The position numbers and the translations under genes were made by a program. From a virus, in the IMG/VR virus record IMGVR_UViG_3300020428_000121, positions 1 through 20,306 of that record: a stretch of DNA of 20,306 nucleotides. One strand, 5' to 3'. This document shows positions 11,405 through 16,139 of this stretch, piece by piece; the first letter of the stretch is position 1, and each line of letters starts with the position of its first letter. Under the pieces are notes generated by a model that was not told where the DNA came from, made no database searches, and saw only the letters and a program-made list of their open reading frames with translations.

Positions 11405-13108
11405 TTATTTCATCTCGCTGAAGTTTTTGTTTTTGACAAACTCAATTTTTGAATTGAATTTTCCATCAAGGACTTCTCCTTTGTGTGATATCACGAACGT
11501 ATTTGTATTATCATCTAAGCTTTCTAGTATTTTCATAAGATTATCAATACCATCATGATCAAGACTTGAATCAAAAGTTTCATCAAGAATTAAAAGATTT
11601 GTAGACACCGAGTTTTTCATCTTAGCAATTTGTCTCCATGTAAACAATAAAGCTAAGTCAATACGTTGCTTTTCACCTTCTGAGAATGAGTCATAAGTAA
11701 ATGCATCACGGTGTCTTGATCTTATTGTTTCTTGAAAACTTTCATCTAAATTAAAATGCACATAGAAATCTAAGATTTGAAGATATTGATTAACAAGCTT
11801 ATTTATCACAGGTAAATATTGCTTAATGATTTTTGTTTTAATTCCTGTATCTTTAAGCATTTCAAGAATGACTTGATTATAAGAACTAGTTTCTCTTAAA
11901 GCAAATTTATGTTCAAGTTTTGATTCTTGAGATTCCTTATATTGTTGTAATTCTGAATTTGCTTGTGATAAGTCTTTACTTGTATCTTCTTCGTTTTTAT
12001 CTACATTTATTTGTTTTTGGAGCTTATCAATAGTTTTGCTATTGGAATTTATAGTAGATTGCTTTTCACGAATATCATTTATTTTTTCTACTATTACATC
12101 TAACTCTTTTTCAACTTGAGTGTATTCAATTTTAACGCCTTTTACAGCGTCTAAAATTTTTAGCCCTTCATCTTTTAAGGATTTTAGTTTTTCGTCTTTA
12201 AGCTCTTTATCTATTTCTTGAGTACATGTTGGGCATATATCATTAACTTTATAGAAATCACTATCTTTTTCTAAAGCCTTATGCTTTTCTTCAAATCGAT
12301 ATTTGTGTTGCATTAGACTTTGCTTCTTATCATTTAAGTCTTTTGAAGCTTGTTGTGTAGTAGGATCATCTTTACTAATAGCATCTAATAAAACCATATT
12401 TTCGGATAGCAATGATTGTATTTCATCTTCAATTCTTTTTATATTTTTAAGTTTCTTTTTCTTAGCATCTGCACTTATACTTGTAATATCTCGAATATAT
12501 TTCTTTTGTACCTCAATTTTATTTTTTAATATTTCAAGTTGAGCATCGTTTTCTTTAGTTTCATCACGCAATCTTGAATTTTTTTCTTTAAGAATTTGAC
12601 TCATTTTAGAAAAGACACCGATATCTAAAAGATCTTCAATCACATCTCTTCTATGCCCTGCAGGTAATTGCATAAAAGGAATAAACGATGATGAACCTAA
12701 TACAACAACCTGATGAAACGACTTATGATTAAGTTTAAGAATATTTTGCTCAAGAATTTTTTGATACTCGCGGGCGTGCGAGGATTGATTAAGCATTATA
12801 TTATTTTTCCAAATTTCAAATACGCCAGGTTTCACTCCTCGCGCGATCCTATAAGGAATACCTTGAACATCAAATTCTATATGGACTAACATATCCTTTG
12901 AGTTTATAGAATTGATGAGTTGGTTTTTACTAATATTACGGTGTGCTCTACCAAAAAGAGCAAAGGATATTGCATCAAGCATAGTAGATTTGCCTGAGCC
13001 ATTTTGACCAACAATAAGAGTTGATTTATCTTTACTTAAATCAATCTCTATGAAATTGTTACCGGTTGAAAGGAAGTTTTTATATTTAATCTTTTTGAAT
13101 ACGATCAT
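11405..13108 (-). CDS. 46: Recombination endonuclease subunit gp46 (Rad50/SbcC-like)
   Basis: The ATPase of the gp46/gp47 complex that resects DNA ends for recombination-dependent replication. Length 567 aa (T4 560). Walker A VGQNGSGKST (33-42) at the N terminus, then two long coiled-coil arms flanking the zinc-hook CPTC (about 292-295), the signature FSEGEKQRIDLAL and Walker B LLILDETFDSSLD near the C terminus. ATG at 13108 overlaps the gp47 stop as ATGA. Confidence 0.96.
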   Translation of the reverse strand: MIVFKKIKYKNFLSTGNNFIEIDLSKDKSTLIVGQNGSGKSTMLDAISFALFGRAHRNISKNQLINSINSKDMLVHIEFDVQGIPYRIARGVKPGVFEIWKNNIMLNQSSHAREYQKILEQNILKLNHKSFHQVVVLGSSSFIPFMQLPAGHRRDVIEDLLDIGVFSKMSQILKEKNSRLRDETKENDAQLEILKNKIEVQKKYIRDITSISADAKKKKLKNIKRIEDEIQSLLSENMVLLDAISKDDPTTQQASKDLNDKKQSLMQHKYRFEEKHKALEKDSDFYKVNDICPTCTQEIDKELKDEKLKSLKDEGLKILDAVKGVKIEYTQVEKELDVIVEKINDIREKQSTINSNSKTIDKLQKQINVDKNEEDTSKDLSQANSELQQYKESQESKLEHKFALRETSSYNQVILEMLKDTGIKTKIIKQYLPVINKLVNQYLQILDFYVHFNLDESFQETIRSRHRDAFTYDSFSEGEKQRIDLALLFTWRQIAKMKNSVSTNLLILDETFDSSLDHDGIDNLMKILESLDDNTNTFVISHKGEVLDGKFNSKIEFVKNKNFSEMK

Positions 13109-14166
13109 GAAATTTCTAAGGCCTGTGCTTCTGTCATCAAATTTCTTACTTGCGACTTAATTTTTTCTTTATCTAAGTCAGTAACTACTCCATCAATATA
13201 GGTGTCTAAAAGCACAGACGTGTCTTCAAGAGAAACGGCCTCATCATCAACATTTTCTCCCATAAACTCATTAAAATTTTCTTGTATTTTAAGCTCATAT
13301 ATGTCTTCGTTTTGAATTCTATCGATGAACCTATCAAATGTAAAAGGGTCTTTTTTATTTGCAACAACAACCTTAATAAATTTTTGCTTAAGCTTTGAAA
13401 CATCATATTCAAAATACTCGTGCTGTTCATCATCATAATATATTCTTTCAAATAAAGTGTATGGATTTCGAATTTTGGTTAACTCACGGGTTTCCGTATC
13501 TAATACGTGAAAATATTTAGGATCATGAGCGTCAGACCAAAAGAACTCAAATTGAGATCCTAAGTATTTAACGTTGCCTTTTTCAGAAGCTGTGTGATAA
13601 TGCCCAGACATTACTAATTCAAATCTTTCAAAGATTTTTGGATCCATGCCATGTGCCATTACATGACCTCTCATTACTTCAAATCCAGAAAGTTCTAAAT
13701 GCGCACCGATAATATCAGCTTTACATTGCTCAATAAATTTTATGCTTTCTTCATAATTTTCTTTGTTTATCCAAGGGATAAGCCCAATATCTAATCCACC
13801 ATAATTTACAATTTTAGGTTTCATAATAATATGAACTTCATTCATGTAATGACCTTGCAATTCTTTTAACGAATTAAGCTCATTAGTGTTTTTGTAAAAA
13901 ACGTCATGATTCCCAGGAATAATATCCATGACCATACCTTCGTCACGAAGAATATCTAAGAACATATATCTATTTGATTGAAGCGCTTTAAAATTAATAA
14001 ACTTGCGATTATCGTAATAATCACCTAAATGCAATATTTGTTTTATATTATTTTCGCGGAGATAAGGAAAGAATATATCATTATAAAACTTTTCTTGTTG
14101 ATCAATAAAGATTTCAGAAGAATTTCTAATACCCGCATGCGTATCATTAAGTATTGCGATTTTCAC
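13105..14166 (-). CDS. 47: Recombination endonuclease subunit gp47 (Mre11/SbcD-like)
   Basis: The nuclease partner of gp46, 353 aa (T4 339). Metallophosphoesterase motifs: ILNDTHAG (D8, H10), LHLGDYYDNR, IIPGNHDVFY, GAHLELSG and MSGHYHTA. The start is GTG 14166, which gives the canonical N terminus; GAGG lies about nine bases upstream. It overlaps the zinc-finger gene by 20 nt. The C-terminal third, which would contact gp46, is rich in charged residues. Confidence 0.96.
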   Translation of the reverse strand: MKIAILNDTHAGIRNSSEIFIDQQEKFYNDIFFPYLRENNIKQILHLGDYYDNRKFINFKALQSNRYMFLDILRDEGMVMDIIPGNHDVFYKNTNELNSLKELQGHYMNEVHIIMKPKIVNYGGLDIGLIPWINKENYEESIKFIEQCKADIIGAHLELSGFEVMRGHVMAHGMDPKIFERFELVMSGHYHTASEKGNVKYLGSQFEFFWSDAHDPKYFHVLDTETRELTKIRNPYTLFERIYYDDEQHEYFEYDVSKLKQKFIKVVVANKKDPFTFDRFIDRIQNEDIYELKIQENFNEFMGENVDDEAVSLEDTSVLLDTYIDGVVTDLDKEKIKSQVRNLMTEAQALEIS

Positions 14167-14302
14167 GTAACTCTGCCTCGTAATGTTTTTTCTGATGTTT
14201 TATAAGACAAGCAATATAACGAAATGACCTATCGCACTCAATACAATTAGCGTATCCATAATGTCTAAAAAACGATTTGTCATACTCTTTATACCATCTC
14301 AT
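14147..14302 (-). CDS. Tiny classical C2H2 zinc-finger protein (51 aa)
   Basis: A gene in the gap between gp55 and gp47. Residues 20-40 read C20-x2-C23-x3-F27-x5-L33-x2-H36-x3-H40 (CIECDRSF...CLIKHQKKH), the full C2H2 consensus including the hydrophobic core positions. The N-terminal 19 residues are aromatic and basic (MRWYKEYDKSFFRHYGYAN); the tail is charged. It is probably a nucleic-acid-binding or protein-docking finger. ATG at 14302 overlaps the gp55 stop (ATGA), so it should be translated with the late sigma factor; its end overlaps the gp47 start. Such small proteins are easily missed by length cut-offs. The role is unknown. Confidence 0.75.
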   Translation of the reverse strand: MRWYKEYDKSFFRHYGYANCIECDRSFRYIACLIKHQKKHYEAELRENRNT

Positions 14303-14895
14303 TCTGAAAAGAATTCTTGGAGATCTGAATCAACTGATTTTGATCTACGTTTCTTTTTCTTTTGTATTGACGCATATTCTTTAATAGCAAAATCTTGTGA
14401 TTTTACCTTTCCGATTCTATCTTTCAAAGTATCTATAAACATTCCTGCTTGTGTAACAGCAGCTTGATTATCATCTCCAATATCAACAAAATCTTCAAGT
14501 CCAGATTGTGACAAATATTTAAATTTAATTTCTTGTTGCTTTTTTTCTTTAGCGATTCTTCTTAAAAACGCATACCAACTTATTTGTGTAAAATAAGCAA
14601 AAGCATTTGGTTTACCTGTTCGCGTAGCGGTTTCTAAATTATAATTCTCAATAGCACGAAGACAATTTTCAACTGCATCCATCACCATTTCTTCACGATA
14701 CGTATATCTAATAAAGTTTGATTTGTGTGATAGACCTTCTGCAATTTTTAAGAAGCATGTAGCAATATAATCAGGTACTAGAGGAAGACTATTTGCTTTC
14801 TTTTCTTTAGCTTCATTTATCACTTTAACATAATCAACAACTGCTTGTGAAAACTCCGCATTATTGACATAATGTGGTCTTTCTTTTGGTTTCAT
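14299..14895 (-). CDS. 55: Late-transcription sigma factor (T4 gp55)
   Basis: A 198-aa sigma factor (T4 185 aa) that directs host RNA polymerase to TATAAATA late promoters. YREEMVMDAVENCLRAIENYNLE... NAFAYFTQISWYAFLRRIAKEKKQ is the sigma region-2-like core. A basic stretch (KKKKRRSKS) is followed by the C-terminal tail DSDLQEFFSE, similar to the gp43 tail, SSLEDFFA; in T4 the gp55 C terminus binds gp45, and the same role is likely here. ATG at 14895 has GGAG six bases upstream; a TTG frame start at 14907 is not used because it overlaps that SD. A TATAAATA site is present in the window before the virion gene at 19930. Confidence 0.95.
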   Translation of the reverse strand: MKPKERPHYVNNAEFSQAVVDYVKVINEAKEKKANSLPLVPDYIATCFLKIAEGLSHKSNFIRYTYREEMVMDAVENCLRAIENYNLETATRTGKPNAFAYFTQISWYAFLRRIAKEKKQQEIKFKYLSQSGLEDFVDIGDDNQAAVTQAGMFIDTLKDRIGKVKSQDFAIKEYASIQKKKKRRSKSVDSDLQEFFSE

Positions 14896-14920
14896 AGTAA
14901 ACTCCAATTGTTATAAGACT

Positions 14921-15530: not shown

Positions 15531-16139
15531 TTATTCTAGAAGAGTTGCGACTAAATGTACTCGATTCTCTTCTCCTCCGTTAAAAAAGTTATGGTAAACT
15601 CTGTTATCAGTAATATATATAGTGCCGTCTGCTATCATATGAAAAGCCTCATCTTCAATCACCATTCTGCTTCCATAGTTGGTTTTTATTGGTATATGTA
15701 TTCTTCTTTCAGGATCTCGGTGCCAACTTAAACATGATCTCGGCGGCTTCATTAAAAATCGCGCGCGTCCAATGCTCCACTTAGAAGCGAGAATATTAAC
15801 AACTTCTTCTGCATACGTACCTTTAAATTCTGGACATATTTCATTGTATTCTGCTTCATCCACATAAGGAAGTCTTTCTTCTTCTTCAAACTTATCGCTC
15901 GGGTAGGTCCAATATTTTCCTCTAACGTTTCCACCTGTTACAGAATTTGGATCTCCAATTTTTCTATTAATGCAAATAGCATTAAAATCGACAAGACTGC
16001 TATCATCAGTCGAATGCTCGTGCGTGCGTAGAAACTCATTATAATCTTCGTAAAGCTTTTCAACATTTATTATTTTTTGTAAAGTTTTTTCAAGATAACG
16101 GTATTTCGTATTCACGATAGTCAAATCGTTCTTTGTCAT
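15531..16139 (-). CDS. 2-oxoglutarate/Fe(II) oxygenase, Asp/Asn beta-hydroxylase-like
   Basis: A 202-aa protein. The catalytic core is SWHRDPERRIHIPI (H140-x-D142), then YHNFFNGGEENRVHLVATL (H183 iron ligand, R193 for 2-oxoglutarate), with a typical double-stranded beta-helix spacing. The pattern HxD...RIHIPI...H...R is that of the aspartyl/asparaginyl beta-hydroxylase branch. Marine T4-like phages commonly carry 2OG oxygenases; the substrate, protein or nucleotide, cannot be read. ATG at 16139 has AAAGGG nine bases upstream and overlaps the uvsW end by 50 nt. Confidence 0.82.
   Translation of the reverse strand: MTKNDLTIVNTKYRYLEKTLQKIINVEKLYEDYNEFLRTHEHSTDDSSLVDFNAICINRKIGDPNSVTGGNVRGKYWTYPSDKFEEEERLPYVDEAEYNEICPEFKGTYAEEVVNILASKWSIGRARFLMKPPRSCLSWHRDPERRIHIPIKTNYGSRMVIEDEAFHMIADGTIYITDNRVYHNFFNGGEENRVHLVATLLE

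Follow-up and report, generated by a model that had tools for sequence, protein, structure and literature searches.

The finger gene and its neighbours

The window, a stretch of viral DNA of 20,306 nucleotides, carries on its minus strand a run of core genes: the late sigma factor gp55 (14299..14907; phrog_234, E 1.1e-49), the SbcD-like nuclease subunit gp47 (13105..14166; phrog_100, E 1e-95; Metallophos, E 1e-8) and the SbcC-like ATPase gp46 (11405..13108; AAA_23, E 4e-18; SMC_N, E 7e-15). These PHROG and Pfam matches bear out the identities assigned to the flanking genes in the initial annotation. Comparison with the corresponding ORF of a related IMG/VR contig, L002, indicates that gp55 is likely to start at the ATG at 14895. 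The C-terminus of gp55 (14299-14340) is a hydrophobic, acidic tail (VDSDLQEFFSE), which is similar in relatives, is left intact by cargo insertions and resembles the tail through which T4 gp55 has been described to bind the clamp (PMC2988020).

Between gp55 and gp47, and on the same strand, the ORF list contains a frame for a protein of 51 aa (14147..14302, including the stop codon), which is supported by orthologs and has the translation MRWYKEYDKSFFRHYGYANCIECDRSFRYIACLIKHQKKHYEAELRENRNT. A pattern search identified a single C2H2 motif in this protein, C-x2-C-x3-F-x5-L-x2-H-x3-H, which runs from C20 to H40 (14183..14245, minus strand), comprises C20, C23, F27, L33, H36 and H40, and satisfies the classical pattern C-x2-4-C-x3-F-x5-L-x2-H-x3-5-H. 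The start codon overlaps the gp55 stop codon in an ATGA (14299..14302), and its final 20 nt (14147..14166) are shared with the beginning of gp47, whose GTG start is at 14166, so that gp47 coding constrains the C-terminal residues of the finger protein. The initial annotation, which was silent on the strand, had described a 51-aa frame with exact C2H2 spacing, the structural Phe and Leu, and ATGA coupling to gp55, and all of these features are present. Given these overlaps with both neighbours, the gene is probably co-translated with gp55 and gp47 on a shared message. As a DNA pattern, the motif is found a single time in the window and in none of 100 dinucleotide-preserving shuffles of it; among 92 collected loci it is restricted to the locus of the window and those of its two relatives, and no residue-level finger motif was detected in the six frames of 755 kb of other loci. 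The 51-aa frame is a genuine gene, and its motif is beyond chance.

Conservation, profile matches and predicted fold

Two IMG/VR contigs, L002 and L003, are colinear with the window (~81% nucleotide identity over 8.5-8.8 kb), and each encodes a 54-aa ortholog of the finger protein (L002 2859-3023; L003 2045-2209) in the same place and with the same ATGA start; both the start and the stop overlaps are preserved. The finger protein is 63% identical to these orthologs, as opposed to ~88% for gp55 and gp47. Both orthologs keep the four ligands and the F/L core, that is, all six motif positions, as well as the stretch FRYIACL, and the only internal indel in the alignment, of two codons, is in frame. 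The dN/dS ratio of the finger gene is 0.39-0.55 overall and 0.29-0.33 in the finger part, compared with 0.05 for gp47; as judged from these sequences, the gene is weakly constrained, yet constrained, and fast-evolving. Conservation of the six motif positions taken alone is not striking (chance ~0.05 by a hypergeometric calculation made by hand, 0.013 by nucleotide simulation), so we rely on a combined simulation, in which an equal number of random substitutions left the frame, the motif and the identity all intact in 0.04% of runs (P ~4e-4). Neither ligand loss nor frame disruption, the observations that the initial annotation had set against its own proposal, was seen in these close relatives, which, being nearly identical to each other, effectively provide one independent comparison. 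The window protein alone, used as a query, found no relative; an alignment of the orthologs (A1) retrieved the same two contigs only and zero bacterial or archaeal genomes, and two half-motif scans yielded no further homolog.

The profile search that had been proposed, with Pfam zf-C2H2 (PF00096), matched all three orthologous proteins, in each case below the curated cut-off of 25.2 bits: 17.0 bits for the window finger (E 0.0084), and 18.4 and 19.5 bits for its two orthologs. The description of the finger as 'textbook' is thus apt for the pattern and inapt for the profile score. In other phage genomes, PF00096 matches that look accidental score up to 16 bits; matches of this size are noise, so the case for a finger rests on conservation. 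The protein is accordingly classed as C2H2-type on the strength of its motif, its conservation and its predicted fold, and does not formally qualify for the Pfam family. A match of the finger protein to phrog_13952 (E 0.049) was judged too weak.

A profile built from the three orthologs (A1) matched the one-finger PDB chain 2em9 (ZNF224) with an E-value of 1.1e-6. Its matches to PDB fingers mostly span residues 19-41; multi-finger arrays score higher, but repetition inflates these values. AlphaFold places a short helix near the N-terminus (9-15), followed by a hairpin and then a long helix (30-49), with a pLDDT of 77 for the best model and 51-56 for the other four. The top Foldseek matches of the predicted fold are mostly C2H2 fingers (CTCF, Kaiso, ZNF224), superposed at ~0.5-1.3 A rmsd over 22-27 residues; their E-values of ~1 are unsurprising because the aligned segment comprises only ~25 residues. 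The sequence comparisons and, more tentatively, those made with the modelled fold point to a C2H2 finger.

Contents of the gp55-gp47 junction

We compared 133 distinct gp55-gp47 junctions from IMG/VR and annotated marine T4-like phages, scoring a junction as having no gene if the gap was <40 nt. No gene lies between gp55 and gp47 in 88 of them, and the finger gene is present in three and absent from 130. Most of the other junctions harbor unrelated genes, which mostly start with an ATGA overlap to gp55. These encode NAD epimerases (PF01370, 1e-22), a sulfotransferase (PF00685, 4e-23), 2OG-Fe(II) oxygenases, a P-loop kinase, a DUF6580 protein, small unknowns and MazE/AbrB-like small proteins (L065, L135, L148, L153, L161 and L182; 6e-8 in one, weak in the others). 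The tails of the MazE/AbrB-like proteins are shaped by the gp47 start. In Synechococcus phage ACG-2014f, the slot contains an unannotated 54-aa ORF (L193:1953-2117) with a CxxC-CxxC arrangement, a C4 zinc-ribbon-like pattern (CKECGC...CHFC). Gene-bearing junctions also include L051, L066, L112, L139, L147, L176 and L181, in addition to L065.

With the finger in only three of the 133 junctions and unrelated genes in others, the finger gene is best described as cargo of a variable slot, and its location there cannot be taken as a sign that it works with gp55 or gp47. In the comparison of this gap that had been suggested for related marine T4-like phages, the ligands and the F/L core are kept in both orthologs, and the finger itself is found in those three junctions. 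The earlier proposal of an accessory dedicated to gp55, RNA polymerase or gp46/47 is unsupported, given that 88 of the 133 slots are empty and most others hold unrelated genes. The finger gene is thus an optional passenger, and probably a dispensable accessory rather than a core component working with the late sigma factor.

The space between these two core genes thus accepts variable cargo, and this cargo overlaps the core genes and probably rides on their translation. The slot is therefore a good place to seek small host-takeover proteins. It also serves as a caution that adjacency to gp55 is unsafe for inferring function. For T4-like phages, the window adds a clean, free-standing finger of the classical type; a PF00096 search of 13 annotated marine T4-like genomes revealed nothing convincing. 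Among the matches rejected, one in Pelagibacter phage Mosig lies within a region annotated as one long CDS, with no finger ORF, and one in ACG-2014b falls in a 33-aa open frame that was provisionally taken as chance.

Possible roles and relationship to known fingers

By classical numbering, helix positions -1, +2, +3 and +6 of the finger are occupied by Y29, A31, C32 and K35, which are identical in all three orthologs, and an Ile at +1 would give the helix a hydrophobic start. Tyr, Ala, Cys and Lys are unusual for base contact at these positions. The atypical contact residues, together with the hydrophobic helix start, favor a protein-binding adaptor and place a weak DNA-binding regulator second. 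We therefore tentatively regard the protein, with a probability of about 0.45, as a fast-evolving accessory made of a single zinc-folded C2H2 finger, an optional cargo of the slot in marine T4-like phages that acts as a protein-binding adaptor. One zinc ion, held by C20, C23, H36 and H40, is predicted to fix the hairpin-helix unit, with the short N-terminal helix preceding it. The helix face FRYIACL-x-KHQK, which is strictly kept and for the most part hydrophobic, would then form the adaptor surface for a host or phage protein, which may be modulated during infection; alternatively, this face could be packed internally against the N-terminal helix. A more specific proposal appears unlikely: it would make this free-standing finger a protein adaptor on the transcription machinery of the host or the phage, the first micro-protein of its kind in T4-like phages, and one of several swappable regulators of the slot.

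A small regulator that binds phage or host DNA, either through the basic helix end or as a dimer, and thereby alters transcription is the next candidate, possible but less probable than the adaptor. The finger segment is net positive, with R28, K35 and K38 kept, and other small putative DNA-binding proteins (those of the MazE/AbrB-like type) recur in the slot. However, the contact residues are not the usual base readers, the finger has neither a linker nor a second finger, and the orthologs have an acidic N-terminal part. The net charge, counted by hand, is not conserved (~+4 in the window, +1 in L003), which also speaks for an adaptor over a base reader. A precedent for DNA binding by a single finger is AFV1p06, an archaeal virus protein for which a regulatory role of this kind has been proposed and which binds double-stranded DNA at sub-micromolar concentration with a GC preference (PMC3541406). 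AFV1p06 is likewise a small viral protein with one classical-type finger and N- and C-terminal extensions, but it employs Glu as the fourth ligand and has an added C-terminal loop and strand, whereas the phage finger has His as the fourth ligand and its main extension is N-terminal.

Far less probable is that the protein works specifically with the late transcription machinery or with gp46/47, for example in place of the co-activator gp33. The ATGA coupling to gp55 and the overlap with gp47 would agree with such a role, as would the observation that the sequence of the gp33 homologue in cyanophage S-PM2 does not reveal whether it binds its clamp (PMC2988020). Nevertheless, all 130 junctions that lack the finger have both gp55 and gp47, and unrelated enzymes occupy the slot in relatives. 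A gp33-like factor would be expected to bind the RNA polymerase flap and the sliding clamp and to be conserved alongside gp55 across the phage family, which the finger, present in 3 of 133 junctions, is not. The finger protein also lacks an acidic-hydrophobic clamp-binding tail, and its C-terminal end is constrained by the start of gp47.

Fingers of the same pattern occur elsewhere in IMG/VR. They are fused to HNH nucleases, as recognized by PHROG matches, in L093 (8983-9576) and L103 (1374-1967), form a 39-aa free-standing ORF in two contigs (L097:3150-3269 and L104:478-540), and are found as several fingers within a larger protein in L101 (11580-12632). Five further pattern matches (L095, L096, L098, L099 and L100) have a stop codon inside the motif, and matches in Klebsiella jumbo phages proved spurious, the KPN8 stretch having one cysteine and no finger. 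The HNH fusions raise the idea that the window finger is the DNA-binding remnant of a homing endonuclease that formerly occupied the slot. We consider this very improbable, since no HNH domain (PF01844) is present in the window or in the L002 and L003 records, and since the finger ORF occupies the gap completely, evolves under constraint and carries an N-terminal extension of its own. That the frame is non-coding or a product of chance within the 132-nt spacer, as the small size, fast evolution and sub-threshold Pfam score might suggest, is equally improbable in view of the joint preservation of frame, motif and indel phase, the A1 matches to single-finger PDB chains and the preserved start and stop overlaps.

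The adaptor candidate shares with classical C2H2 fingers (PF00096, PF13894, PF13912) the ligand spacing, the structural Phe and Leu, and the predicted hairpin-helix; it differs from them in scoring below the Pfam cut-offs, in having one finger and no TGEKP linker, and in its atypical helix contacts. Ros/MucR proteins of the bacterial world also possess a Cys2His2 zinc site, but the Ros ligands C79, C82, H92 and H97 are spaced x9/x4 within a larger, 58-aa fold (PMC9779718), as opposed to x12/x3 in the phage finger, which does not fit the Ros pattern C-x2-C-x9-H-x4-H; the initial annotation was correct in separating the two. Its implication that C2H2 fingers are rare in phages needs correcting. 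Our survey of the literature on phage C2H2 proteins found little, but staphylococcal kayvirus 812 carries a zinc-finger protein (PMC10127798), which, like the HNH fusions of L093 and L103, represents a phage finger of the classical type within a larger protein. The window finger, in contrast to those fusions, stands alone, with no nuclease in its vicinity. Fingers of the C2H2 type have thus been described before in proteins of phages and archaeal viruses, and what is new for the window finger is its lineage and setting.

Elsewhere in the window, a 202-aa ORF (15531-16139) between the uvsW-like and methylamine-utilisation-like genes is without a PHROG match; by eye it contains an HxD...H pattern, as in the 2OG-Fe(II) oxygenases that neighbour uvsW in related phages.
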